Source: a bacterium (GTDB lineage: Bacteria > Myxococcota > UBA727 > JAUIJE01). Taken from it: a DNA stretch of 64,000 nt. The translations under genes were made by a program, and so were the position numbers. The notes beneath the pieces were generated by a model. That model saw nothing but the letters and a program-made list of their open reading frames with translations. It ran no database searches and was not told where the DNA came from. Position 1 is the first letter of the stretch; each line of letters opens with the position of its first letter. The DNA is taken from contig JAUIJE010000008.1 in assembly GCA_030431455.1 (NCBI GenBank), forward strand, positions 1 to 64,000, written 5' to 3'. Positions 1-46,500 of the stretch are shown here, in pieces.

Positions 1-305
1 GGCCCCAGAGCTGGTCCCCGAGCTGGTCCCCGAGCTGGCCCCAGAGCTGGTCCCCGAGCTGGCCCCAGAGCTGGTCCCCGAGCTGGTCCCCGAGCTGGCC
101 CCAGAGCTGGTCCCCGAGCTGGCCCCTGAGCTGGCCCCAGAGCTGGTCCCCGAGCTGGCCCCTGAGCTGGCCCCAGAGCTGGCCCCCGAGCTGGTCCCCG
201 AGCTGGCCCCAGAGCTGGTCCCCGAGCTGGTCCCCGAGCTGGCCCCAGAGCTGGTCCCCGAGCTGGCCCCTGAGCTGGTCCCCGAGCTGGTCCCCGAGCT
301 GGTCC
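1..305. repeat. 12-bp tandem coding repeat, about 25 units
   Basis: Units alternate between GAGCTGGTCCCC and GAGCTGGCCCCA, with rare variants (GAGCTGGCCCCT, GAGCTGGCCCCC), and run without interruption from base 1 to about 305; they probably continue beyond the window. Because the unit is a multiple of three, copy-number change keeps the minus-strand frame open and only alters the length of the (D/G)QL(G/W) ladder. The high identity suggests recent expansion or contraction. Confidence 0.95.
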
Positions 306-571
306 CTGCTGATCTTTTGCAGCAGGTTCACGGCAAGCATCCCAGCCGCCGGGCTATCCACAAAGAACACCAGGCCAGGGGGCTCAAGGCCACGTTCGCG
401 ATATGAGGCATCCAGCGCCCGACGGGCAGCCTCGCGGTCGGTTGGTTCAGTGGAGCGACCAAGGGCCAGCATCTCTGCTCGCCATTCGCGCATCCGCGCC
501 CAGTCGGCCTCGGGGATTTCCACAAGGCGGTTGCCGTCCCAGGTGCGGCCGTTTTCGTCTGTGCGCCGCAT
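1..571 (-). CDS. DUF6745-like repeat protein, 3' end cut by window edge
   Basis: The minus-strand frame starts at ATG 571 and stays open to base 1, giving at least 190 residues with the C-terminus outside the window. Residues about 1-90 are non-repetitive and include ARRALDASYRERGLEPP and VFFVDSPAAG, the pattern I associate with DUF6745 proteins (a small acidic/aromatic head, then a long QL/QV ladder). From about residue 90 the protein becomes a four-residue ladder of (D/G)QL(G/W/R) encoded by 12-bp repeats. The start overlaps the stop of the upstream gene by one base (TGATG), so the two are translationally coupled. Function is unknown. Such genes are often found in phages or variable islands, which agrees with the tRNA fragment nearby. 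The family call rests on pattern memory, not on a search. Confidence 0.6.
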   Translation of the reverse strand, partial: MRRTDENGRTWDGNRLVEIPEADWARMREWRAEMLALGRSTEPTDREAARRALDASYRERGLEPPGLVFFVDSPAAGMLAVNLLQKISRDQLGDQLGDQLRGQLGDQLWGQLGDQLGDQLWGQLGDQLGGQLWGQLRGQLGDQLWGQLRGQLGDQLWGQLGDQLGDQLWGQLGDQLWGQLGDQLGDQLWG

Positions 572-912
572 CAGTCTTCCACCCGCCGCCAGCCCTCGGG
601 GGTGTATTCGCGCTGACGCTGAACGCGCCAGAGGCCCGAGCGCAGCACCAGGGTTTCGTGGGTGTCGTGGGTGCGGTGGTGCACGATGTCCACCGGGTCG
701 CCCTCGATCCGCAGGTAGCAGACCATCCCGTCATCGGGGACGTCGAACACCCCGACGCCCTTTGCAGTCACAGTGTGGTGGTGGCCAGTCTCGCTGTGGG
801 CAAGGACGTGCTGACCGTTCAGCGCCTTCCGTTCCACCAGCCCATCAGGCAGCTGGTCGACGCGGATGAGCAGCATGTCCCCTTGGGCGCCGATGTTGTC
901 TACGTTCTTCAT
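571..912 (-). CDS. Small GHHH-motif protein, partner of the DUF6745-like gene
   Basis: The protein has 113 residues from ATG 912, which has GGAGGA five bases upstream; an in-frame start at 969 has no comparable ribosome site. It begins MKNVDNIGAQGDMLLIRV and contains SETGHHHTVTAKGVGV and a VDIVHHRTHDTHETLVL stretch near the C-terminus. The 'GD-lli-R ... E-tGHhH' pattern occurs in small proteins of phages and actinobacterial or myxobacterial islands, usually next to DUF6745 genes. No signal peptide or membrane segment is visible. The cluster of histidines could bind metal, but that is inference. It is coupled to the next gene by a one-base stop/start overlap. Confidence 0.7.
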   Translation of the reverse strand: MKNVDNIGAQGDMLLIRVDQLPDGLVERKALNGQHVLAHSETGHHHTVTAKGVGVFDVPDDGMVCYLRIEGDPVDIVHHRTHDTHETLVLRSGLWRVQRQREYTPEGWRRVED

Positions 913-1083
913 GTTTCCTCCGTTTTGTTGGTGAGTTAGTGATGCAGGATCATTGACTGAACCCCGCACGGCCCGCGTCTCCTCTGGCGGAACCTGATAG
1001 GTGACGAGGGGGCCCAGGAATCCCCTCGTCGGTCTCCACCCTCGACGCCTGGGCGTCCTCTCCGGCCAAGCCGGCGCGGGCTT

Positions 1084-1296
1084 TTATGAAGTTCCCTTGT
1101 GCTCAGCTTTCTCGAGCGCCGACCGCACAAAGCAGTCCTTCGCTTCGAGCAGCTTGCGGAGCCCCGCGGCCTTCTCTGCCCCATCGGGCAACTCTGCGTC
1201 CATCTGAGTCGCCAGGGTGCGCATGGGCTCGCTCACCTTCTGGAGGTTTTCGGGGAGATGGCCGAACTGAAACCATCGAATCGTCGGATGCGACAC
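1084..1296 (-). CDS. Small helical protein resembling Acb2/Tad1 hairpin proteins
   Basis: The protein has 70 residues from GTG 1296, with AAAGGA about seven bases upstream, and ends at TAA. The core reads FGHLPENLQKVSEPM, then an LPDGAEKAAGLRKLLEAKD stretch ending in CFVRSAL. It is therefore two helices joined at an LP-x-G-x-E turn with a conserved LLEAKD helix. Small phage and prophage proteins with this layout have been grouped with the Acb2/Tad1 hairpin domain. Acb2 and Tad1 are phage proteins that sequester signalling nucleotides of CBASS and Thoeris immunity. The similarity is in layout and a few positions only, so nucleotide binding is inference. It lies in the same minus-strand group as the DUF6745-like gene. 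Confidence 0.6.
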   Translation of the reverse strand: MSHPTIRWFQFGHLPENLQKVSEPMRTLATQMDAELPDGAEKAAGLRKLLEAKDCFVRSALEKAEHKGTS

Positions 1297-1460
1297 TGAC
1301 TGTCCTTTCGTTTGTAAACTGATGCGGCGCCCAGAAGCAGGACGGCAAAGTAGCGACGACGGGGCTTTCGGCCGCCGGCGCGGAAGGTGAGACGCAGGTT
1401 CTCGTTCGGCTCATGCGAGAGCGCCATGTTGCGCAAGTAGACGATTTGCCCGTCCCTCAT
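1233..1460 (-). CDS. Possible small basic protein, uncertain
   Basis: This 75-residue frame begins at ATG 1460 (MRDGQIVYLRNMALSHE) and has a basic, hydrophobic middle (RRRYFAVLLLGAA). It overlaps the following gene by 64 bases in another frame. No convincing ribosome site precedes it and no family is recognised. I list it because it is the only frame able to fill the gap between the tRNA fragment and the 1084-1296 gene on the strand used by its neighbours. Confidence 0.3.
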   Translation of the reverse strand: MRDGQIVYLRNMALSHEPNENLRLTFRAGGRKPRRRYFAVLLLGAASVYKRKDSQCRIRRFDGFSSAISPKTSRR

Positions 1461-1591
1461 CGCCGGCCACCAGTGTGCGGCTTTTGTGCGGTGGATTTTG
1501 CGCGGGGTGCGCCCGGGTGCGTTTGGTGCTCCAGGGGCTGCGCATGGTGCTGCGGTTTGGGGGCGGGTGCGTCTGGTGCGCTACCGTCTCC

Positions 1592-1641
1592 CCGGCCTGT
1601 CACGCCGAAGGTCGCGGGTTCGAGTCCCGTCCGCCCCGCCA
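1592..1641 (+). pseudogene. 3' half of tRNA-Asp (GUC), att-like fragment
   Basis: From the anticodon arm to the encoded CCA the sequence is that of a bacterial tRNA-Asp: anticodon loop CTGTCAC, variable region AGGTC, T-arm GCGGG-TTCGAGT-CCCGT, acceptor 3' strand CCGCCCC, discriminator G, then CCA. The 5' half is not canonical. A GGGGCGG that could pair with the acceptor occurs at 1560-1566, but the 25 bases between it and the anticodon stem do not make a normal D-arm and are part of a local GGTGCG-rich repeat. A fragment starting at the anticodon loop and ending at CCA is the usual att footprint of tRNA-integrating elements. The intact tRNA would then lie to the left, beyond the element. Confidence 0.65.
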
Positions 1642-1646
1642 GAAAT

Positions 1647-1674
1647 GGAGCCCTTTGGGCTCCTTTTCTTTTTT
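1647..1674 (+). terminator. Rho-independent terminator after the tRNA fragment
   Basis: A perfect 7-bp stem, GGAGCCC/GGGCTCC with a TTT loop, is followed by a T-rich tail (TTTTCTTTTTT). It sits five bases after the CCA, as expected for the terminator of a tRNA-Asp gene carried along with the fragment. Confidence 0.9.
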
Positions 1675-1675
1675 C

Positions 1676-1724
1676 GCGGGGCGGACGGGCTCGAATCCCG
1701 CGACCTTCGGCGTGACGGGCCGTC
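1676..1724 (-). repeat. Inverted copy of the tRNA-Asp 3' half
   Basis: Read on the minus strand this segment repeats the tRNA-Asp anticodon-to-acceptor region with only about three differences over 45 bases, including an indel in the T-arm. With the direct copy at 1592-1641 it forms a large inverted repeat whose centre is the terminator hairpin. A shorter inverted remnant (CCGCCCCGCGACCTTCGG...) lies at 1819-1845. Confidence 0.9.
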
Positions 1725-1921
1725 GGCGAGAATTCAAGCAGTGGCGGTACGCGCGGGTTCACCCGCTCTCCGAGGGGCAAGCCCCTCCCCCGCAAGCGGG
1801 GCCCCCTCCCATTTGGCCGTCCGCCCCGCGACCTTCGGCGTGACGCACCCTCGACGACAATCAACCCCTCACAACACGCGCGGGTTCGCCCGCTCGCCGG
1901 GGGGCAAGCCCCTCCCCGCGT
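1676..1921. repeat. Two diverged copies of a ~127-bp repeat unit
   Basis: Each unit holds an inverted tRNA-Asp remnant followed about 50 bases later by a block with two small hairpins (GCGGGTTC-CCCGC and GGGGCAAGCCCC). Matching positions are ACCTTCGG at 1703 and 1831, and GCGCGGGTTC at 1751 and 1878, a period of 127-128. The units differ at many positions, so the duplication is old. No gene is evident in 1642-2001. Confidence 0.8.
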
Positions 1922-2001
1922 GCCGGGCCGGCGGTTCGGCCGCGGCCCGTTCGTGCCGAAATCCGCCCGAAGCCCAGGCCCCACGACGCCAGATCGAGAC
2001 A

Positions 2002-2036
2002 GTTCATTGCATCCAAACATTTCTGATTCTATGAAC
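2002..2036. promoter_or_regulatory. Possible MarR operator/promoter region
   Basis: A locally AT-rich stretch upstream of the marR-like gene is bounded by GTTCAT and ATGAAC arms 23 bases apart. MarR proteins commonly repress their own operon from such sites, but this spacing is wide for a single operator, so the assignment is weak. Confidence 0.25.
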
Positions 2037-2071: not shown

Positions 2072-2563
2072 ATGGGCCGTCCCAAACGCGACATCATGCA
2101 CACCACCATCGAGCTGTTCCTCGACGCGCTCAGCGCGGTGCGCACCCTGCACCACCAACGCCACGGCGCGGTCAGCTGGCTGCGCCTGGATCTTTCCATG
2201 CGCCAACTGAAGGCAACCATGACGCTGGTCGCGCAGGGCCCGATTCCCGCGGGGGAGCTGGCCGCCACCCTCGGCATCGCCCCCTCGGCGGCCACCCCGC
2301 TTGTCGATCAGCTGTGCGAGCTCGGCCTCGCCCAGCGCGAACCCGACGAGGCCGACCGCCGCGTCACCCGGGTGCGGGCCACCCCCGAGGCCCAAGCGCT
2401 GCGGGACCGCCTGATGAACAGCAACCGCGAGGTCCTGCTCGAGTTGCTCGACCACCTCACCGTGCGCGAACTCGGCGCGCTCGAGACAGGGTTGGCCGCG
2501 CTTGTGTCCGCCGCAGAACAGAACCAACGCCCCGCGGAAGCCCGCGCCCAGGTCGCCTCATGA
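2072..2563 (+). CDS. MarR-family transcriptional regulator
   Basis: This 163-residue winged-helix protein has the MarR layout: N-terminal dimerisation helix, then AELAATLGIAPSAATPLVDQL as a helix-turn-helix at about residues 60-80, and the wing EPDEADRRVTRVRAT ending near residue 110. The DxRxxxV/R wing motif is typical of the family. The start ATG 2072 has CGGAG upstream. Its stop overlaps the transporter start by four bases (ATGA), so regulator and pump are made together. Regulators in this arrangement usually repress their pump and release DNA on binding a toxic ligand. The ligand cannot be read from the sequence. Confidence 0.9.
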   Translation: MGRPKRDIMHTTIELFLDALSAVRTLHHQRHGAVSWLRLDLSMRQLKATMTLVAQGPIPAGELAATLGIAPSAATPLVDQLCELGLAQREPDEADRRVTRVRATPEAQALRDRLMNSNREVLLELLDHLTVRELGALETGLAALVSAAEQNQRPAEARAQVAS

Positions 2564-45405: not shown

Positions 45406-46500
45406 TCAGCGCACCGAATCGAAGCCCGGCGGCTCCGGCCCGAGGGCGACGTCCCCCCATTCGAGCACCGCGGCGGCGGCGTTGGACACGCTCCCCACCG
45501 CGTACACCAGGACCCGGTCGCCGGGCTTCACCCCCCGCCGGGCGCAGGTGAAGTAAAGCCCGGTGAGCGGCAGCACCGGCCCGACGTTGGCGGTCTCCGG
45601 ATGCACGTTGACCACCGCCTCCGGCGGGACCTGGCACATCTCCGCGCAGAACGCCGCGTACCAGGCGGTGGGGGTGGGAAACACCCAATGCTGGATATCC
45701 GCGGGGCGACAGCCCGCGTCGGCCCACACCTTGTCCACCGTCTCGGTGATGAACAGCTCCGCGGTGTCGCGCAGCTTGCTCGCCCCGCCTTTTTGCAGCG
45801 CCAGCTTCACAAACGGGTCGCCGTTGCCGTCGAGCACCAGCTCTTGGCGAAGGGCCCCCACCGTCTCCACGGTGTTGCGCACCGCATGTCCCTGCAGCCG
45901 CGCCCCCTGCCCGTCCATGGTCATGACCATCGCCGCGGCCCCATCGCCGTCGCCCCACCGCAGCGTGGTGTCGGGCAAATGGGTGGTGCTGTAGCTGCAC
46001 GAGGTCGCGATCAAGACACATTGGGCCCGGCCCGCGCGCATCATCGCGTCGGCCACCGACAGCGCCACCAACCCCGACGAGCAAGCGCTCTCGAGGTTCC
46101 ACGCCGGGCAGGTCAGGCCCAGCCCCAGCGCCAACGGCGCGGCGTTGCCCACCCCCCAGATGTCGGGAAAGAAGCTGCAGCAGATCAACAAGTCGACGTC
46201 GTCCACCGTGCGCCCGGCCGCCTGCAGGGCGTCGGCGCACGCGCGCTCCTCAAGAGACTGCGCGGTCTCCCCCGGGCGCCGCCAGCGGCGGCGGCGCGCC
46301 CCCCGGAAGGGGTCGGACAAATAGGGTCCCATCGCCCGCACAAACGTCGACGGGGCCCCCTCGTCGGCAGACCAGGTGCGGGCCAGCGCTTGCTGCGCAG
46401 CGGCGTCGACGAGGTCGGGGTGCGCCGTGCGCAACATGTCGTTGTCGACGATCTGTTCGGGAAAGGCGAGCGAGAGCGCCCGCAGCGTCGGTTCGGTCAT
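45406..46500 (-). CDS. Ketoacyl synthase III-like condensing enzyme
   Basis: The 364-residue protein has the thiolase fold pattern of KAS III: DVDLLICCSFFPD, the nucleophile in NLESACSSGLVALS, and late motifs VNVHPETANVGPVLPL and GDRVLVYAVGS. The Cys is in place and an Asn appears in TANVG, but the position expected for the catalytic His (FxxHQAN in FabH) reads WVFPTPTAW, so the normal triad may be altered. It is 33 bases upstream of nothing else on its strand but lies directly behind the ThDP enzyme gene (34-base gap). The pair suggests a small secondary-metabolite or signal pathway rather than fatty-acid initiation. Confidence 0.82.
   Translation of the reverse strand: MTEPTLRALSLAFPEQIVDNDMLRTAHPDLVDAAAQQALARTWSADEGAPSTFVRAMGPYLSDPFRGARRRRWRRPGETAQSLEERACADALQAAGRTVDDVDLLICCSFFPDIWGVGNAAPLALGLGLTCPAWNLESACSSGLVALSVADAMMRAGRAQCVLIATSCSYSTTHLPDTTLRWGDGDGAAAMVMTMDGQGARLQGHAVRNTVETVGALRQELVLDGNGDPFVKLALQKGGASKLRDTAELFITETVDKVWADAGCRPADIQHWVFPTPTAWYAAFCAEMCQVPPEAVVNVHPETANVGPVLPLTGLYFTCARRGVKPGDRVLVYAVGSVSNAAAAVLEWGDVALGPEPPGFDSVR

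Follow-up and report, generated by a model that had tools for sequence, protein, structure and literature searches.

The window analyzed here is the 64,000-nucleotide stretch C7:1-64000 of a 7.7 Mb genome assembled in 28 contigs, and its left edge is a contig end. Positions 1593-1641 carry the 3' part of a tRNA-Asp gene (tRNA positions 29-77), which is found intact as tRNA-Asp(GUC) on contig C26 (C26:36890-36966, minus strand). Apart from the intact gene, the genome has no strong match to this sequence elsewhere. The first base of the direct copy lies in the 5' strand of the anticodon stem, whereas an earlier note on this DNA had it begin at the anticodon loop; the copy ends with CCA. It is followed by the terminator that the same note had described, a GGAGCCC-TTT-GGGCTCC hairpin with a T-rich run behind it, and then by inverted and direct pieces of the same tRNA. 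The features are collected in Table 1.

Table 1. Features at the left end of the window, with strand and supporting evidence.
Feature	Position	Strand	Evidence
Right-hand end of the prophage (remainder C26:1-36889)	1..1592	.	Contig end in 12-bp tandem repeat common to C26 start; split phage protein
Phage protein, N-terminal half, cut by contig end	2..571	-	UOF77368 aligns to both halves; PF20530 on C26 half
Phage gene, function unassigned	571..969	-	phrog_27831, E 4.6e-7
Phage gene, function unassigned	1084..1296	-	phrog_1761, E 8.4e-30
Very probable attR, displaced 3' part of host tRNA-Asp (tRNA 29-77)	1593..1641	+	49/49 identical to C26:36890-36938
Original tRNA-Asp terminator (hairpin 1647-1663 and T-rich run)	1647..1674	+	Reading of the sequence; hairpin centre located by script
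Inverted copy 1, mirror image of the tRNA-Asp tail (tRNA 29-75) about the terminator loop	1676..1722	-	Score 38.5 vs 99th percentile 12.0
Diverged tandem unit, first copy (part of inverted copy 1 and hairpin-rich spacer)	1697..1790	.	Families D7, D10; spacing 127-128 bp
Direct piece of 13 nt, tRNA-Asp 3' end (tRNA 63-75), without CCA	1817..1829	+	blastn E 0.055, weak alone
Inverted copy 2 (tRNA 35-54), truncated, overlaps the direct piece	1825..1844	-	20/20 identical, E 5e-5
Diverged tandem unit, second copy	1825..1917	.	Families D7 (93%), D10 (86%)
MarR-family regulator, host gene past the array	2072..2563	+	PF01047, E 3.3e-10

The prophage adjoining the tRNA-Asp fragment

The direct copy is very probably the attR of a siphovirus-like prophage of about 38.5 kb, with the intact tRNA-Asp on C26 as attL. 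An integrase gene (C26:35693-36868) runs toward the intact tRNA-Asp and ends 21 nt from the tRNA 3' end. It encodes a tyrosine integrase (phrog_1, E 1.8e-58; Pfam PF00589) in which the R, HDLRH and Y motifs are visible. Between this gene and the start of C26 we identified genes for endolysin, tape measure, major tail, head-tail adaptor, capsid (PF05065) and portal proteins, together with the large and small terminase and an O-like replication protein. The earlier note had taken the tRNA-Asp 3' half ending in CCA for an att site and had advised looking for an intact tRNA-Asp and an integrase gene; both were located on C26, and the att site was borne out as that of an integrase-bearing prophage. 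An intact tRNA-Asp with no element between it and the fragment had been named there as evidence to the contrary; the prophage sits between the two.

The starts of C26 and C7 lie inside one common 12-bp tandem repeat in compatible orientations. This repeat encodes (QLGD/QLWG)n within a phage protein of the DUF6745 type and covers positions 1-312 of the window and positions 1-240 of the locus on C26 (L011). The C-terminal half of the phage protein that is cut by the end of C7 opens contig C26 (DUF6745, PF20530), and phage protein UOF77368, which has the same build, aligns to both halves (E 2.6e-9 and 7e-45). Because the repeat is shared and a single phage protein is split, the prophage is taken to consist of C26:36889-1 and C7:1-1592, which give about 38.5 kb, and in addition the repeat at the join. 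It is this repeat in a phage gene that broke the assembly. The ends of C7 and C26 have no exact overlap and the contig join crosses unsequenced repeat, as expected if the repeat exceeds either contig end in length.

Among phage records the best match to the large terminase was about 41% identical. Viral contigs contained distant terminase relatives only, and no relatives of the integrase were found in them. The GC content of the prophage (67%) was similar to that of the host (68-69%). A relative with an empty site was sought by means of the phosphoesterase gene upstream of tRNA-Asp, and genome G006 alone was found to keep this gene beside tRNA-Asp. G006 has no prophage at the junction, and its DNA downstream is unrelated.

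This arrangement makes it very probable that a temperate siphovirus-like phage used its tyrosine integrase to enter the host tRNA-Asp(GUC) gene in the 3' part. With its own copy of the 49-nt core, the phage would have rebuilt an intact tRNA (attL, on C26), while the original 3' part of the host gene, its terminator and the downstream DNA would have been displaced by about 38.5 kb to their present place from 1593 onward. A regenerated target and a displaced fragment mark the ends of an element according to the Islander principle (PMC4383910). Prophages and islands of this type (PMC4383910) resemble the present element in the regenerated tRNA at the integrase end, the displaced 3' fragment at the opposite end, the tyrosine integrase beside the tRNA and the phage genes between the ends. 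Nothing essential differs; the element here is split over two contigs, and the attachment site itself is ordinary.

A few annotations that overlap these features were rejected. ARAGORN predicted a tRNA-Gly at 1549-1641, which is phage DNA fused to the tRNA-Asp tail, and a tRNA-Asp at 45662-45743, which looks spurious; neither was matched by the Rfam tRNA model. Open reading frames of 100-187 aa across 1413-2034 were treated as spurious, and the one on the minus strand reads 'GRTGLEPATFGVTG', i.e., antisense tRNA. Long open reading frames containing 'GRTGLEPATFGVTGR' (window 1457-2020, minus strand, and L012 16865-17947, plus strand) likewise represent antisense tRNA-Asp and are not proteins to annotate.

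Inverted tails at tRNA-Asp and at other tRNA genes

Relative to tRNA positions 29-75, inverted copy 1 carries a substitution, an insertion and a deletion, one of each. No other close inverted repeat of the 64 kb comes near its arm pair in length, and the single-strand fold of the stretch has a z-score of -11.9. The near-identical inverted copy of the earlier note is present, with its limits refined to 1676-1722 and with three differences. The truncated third copy placed at 1819-1845 contains a truncated inverted piece as described, but is really a chimera of this piece with 13 nt in direct orientation. The chimera lies in a second, decayed unit about 127 bp downstream of the first.

The inverted copies sit outside the prophage, on the host side of attR. 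The left limit at tRNA position 29 is common to attR and inverted copy 1. This might hint at a link between the two events, or it may be due to chance, the anticodon stem itself being an inverted repeat.

In a survey of the tRNA loci of the genome (n = 43 tRNAs), every tRNA was scored for its match to the reverse-complemented 150 nt that follow it, and likewise to those that follow all other tRNAs. tRNA-Asp was scored with its displaced chromosomal flank. Against an expectation of 0.4, eight of the 43 tRNAs had scores above the 99th percentile of these cross comparisons: Asp (38.5), Asn (22.5), Arg-ACG (21), Arg-TCT (20.5), Pro-CGG (18.5), His (13), Phe (13) and Ser-TGA (12.5). All eight were the best in their column, and the upstream control gave two. 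Weaker inverted copies were found at the same place behind Gly-GCC and Met. The relatives sampled were five related genomes (the best-scoring 30 tRNA loci of each) and 41 tRNAs from named loci; here 3 of 210 tRNAs reached the same score, one of these matches being just a neighbouring tRNA gene. Genomes of the same order, which are too distant for alignment of the flanks, mostly lacked inverted copies. The inverted copies at tRNA-Asp thus very probably belong to a genome-wide pattern of tRNA tails that involves roughly every fifth tRNA gene.

The inverted copies are not a scar of the prophage, since they lie outside it, are centred on the terminator and have counterparts at many tRNA genes. The earlier note was right in finding them hard to explain by a single insertion. 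Of its overall reading, a recombination scar or att site, the att site stood and the inclusion of the inverted copies in a scar did not; its passing mention of a snap-back duplication was judged the better idea. We consider it probable that two independent events, prophage integration and inverted copying of the tRNA tail, are superposed at 1593-1844. The phage insertion would then have moved a tail array 38.5 kb away from its tRNA. The order of the events was inferred. The mirror copies are less usual than the prophage scar. A search of the open literature, with subscription papers outside its reach, gave nothing directly on point for inverted tRNA tails in bacteria.

Tail arrays and the E. 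coli tyrT repeats

Behind about ten tRNA genes of this genome (L373-L381) lie inverted pieces of the gene's own 3' half, which are often accompanied by direct ones. The Asn array consists of an inverted, a direct and an inverted piece, and the Arg-TCT array of inverted, direct, inverted and direct pieces with a period of 159, reaching the contig end. The Ser-TGA array has a period of 142 and direct 19-nt tails. Phe has three inverted and three direct pieces, the His array has a period of 88, and Arg-ACG has four inverted copies. Direct copies of the tRNA 3' end within tandem units are clear at Arg-TCT, Ser-TGA and Asn, and are represented at Asp by the weak 13-nt piece. At L375 (C6:15000-16173) the contig ends within the Arg-TCT tail array (period 159). 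Arrays of this kind may interrupt assemblies and conceal higher copy numbers.

The E. coli tyrT locus with its 178-bp repeats is the classical parallel. When examined in the same way, its units were found to carry an inverted copy of the T-arm ahead of the direct 19-nt tail copy. In E. coli K-12 tyrT/tyrV (L372) the inverted T-arm precedes each of the direct 19-nt tail copies that were checked in the 178-bp repeats. We found no mention of an inverted T-arm copy in the tyrT repeats in the open literature. Both systems have an array directly downstream of a tRNA gene, with direct pieces of the tRNA 3' end and an inverted T-arm copy per unit. They differ in that many tRNA species of one genome are involved here, whereas only one is in E. 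coli, and in that most copies here start behind an intrinsic terminator. Furthermore, the RtT RNA covariance model (RF00391) matched none of the arrays here and only the E. coli control, and for this reason the arrays were not filed as RtT RNA but as mere look-alikes.

A (T/C)GAGAA loop in the inverted T-arm is common to E. coli tyrT, Ser-TGA of this genome and the tRNA-Asp array of G033. In G033, another genome of the phylum, tRNA-Asp is followed by a tyrT-like array (L058 1550-1975) with the loop sequence CGAGAA.

Origin of the inverted copies

At eight of ten loci the mirror axis of tail and inverted copy lies no more than 2.5 nt from the hairpin centre, and at Arg-ACG, Pro and His it falls exactly on the centre. 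The inverted copies of Arg-TCT and Phe are off the hairpin centre. The inverted copy mostly starts right behind the hairpin. The axis test is supportive only, since any inverted copy that abuts a hairpin tends to symmetry, and its binomial value assumes a uniform axis and is no true probability. A nascent strand that folds back at the terminator hairpin to copy its own product would be expected to leave an axis centred on the hairpin.

Hairpin-primed template switching ("snap-back") is therefore a rather likely origin of the inverted copies, and the best reading overall would combine repeated events of this kind with tandem duplication. Strong terminators behind heavily transcribed tRNA genes would make the nascent DNA strand fold back and prime itself. 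The folded-back strand would copy 13-47 nt of the tRNA tail and then switch back. Direct tail pieces and units would multiply by tandem duplication and then decay, and at tRNA-Asp such a duplication would have produced the second unit. The same process may have acted at many tRNA genes of this genome, independently of the phage. Hairpins in RNA genes reportedly arise by template switching (PMC8794818), and high transcription is a condition for quasi-palindrome mutations in yeast (PMC3820800). The copies resemble these mutations (PMC8794818; PMC3820800) in being reverse complements centred on a hairpin, as fold-back synthesis predicts, but here 13-47 nt were copied beside many tRNA genes of one bacterium.

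In this reading the inverted copying appears mutational rather than functional. An RNA-level role for the copies is possible; the terminator-centred copies lie past the T-run. That the arrays as such are functional, with RNA pairing of inverted and direct pieces tuning the processing or termination of the tRNA transcript as has been proposed in outline for the E. coli rtT product, is unlikely. The tyrT units have the same order of inverted and then direct pieces, and the inverted T-arm loop is common to three arrays. However, at the terminator-centred loci, including tRNA-Asp, transcription past the T-run should be rare, most of the relatives sampled are without copies, and the RtT model gave no match.

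Mobile elements that integrated earlier, or in inverted orientation, at tRNA-Asp are unlikely to have left the inverted copies as scars, even though integration at this gene is proven and attR and inverted copy 1 begin at the same tRNA position. Insertion by a tRNA-directed integrase yields direct repeats, and the same inverted tails are present at about ten tRNA species, with the copy right after the terminator. It is very improbable that a second tRNA-Asp gene, placed tail to tail and sharing a two-way terminator, left the inverted copy as a remnant: 47 nearly identical nucleotides do lie in opposite orientation around a symmetric terminator, but no trace of a 5' half is present, about ten tRNA species would each need a lost twin, and few such inverted tails occur in the sampled relatives.

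With hairpin-primed template switching as the preferred origin, we tentatively suggest a lineage with unusually high fold-back copying at tRNA terminators, in which about one-fifth of the tRNA genes have inverted tails, several of these have grown tyrT-like, and the arrays may since have acquired a role at the RNA level. If true, the genome would provide a natural experiment on how the tyrT/rtT repeats of E. coli arose. About ten parallel cases of an apparent single mutational step, the fold-back at a terminator, would be available in one genome, making the origin of tyrT-type repeats testable. In a bacterium, the mirror copies would also tie template switching to strong hairpins and high transcription. 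In addition, they could pass as integration scars in tools that hunt for displaced tRNA fragments.

Two further observations concern tRNA-Asp loci of other genomes. In G006 (L075 about 2209-2310) the palindrome of the terminator hairpin extends into the last bases of the tRNA (CTCCGCCAAGAACG / CGTTCTTGGCGGAG). In G001 (L079 2804-2851, at a contig end) the intact gene is followed after about 55 bp by a direct copy of the tRNA-Asp tail that is broken and contains a small inserted hairpin.
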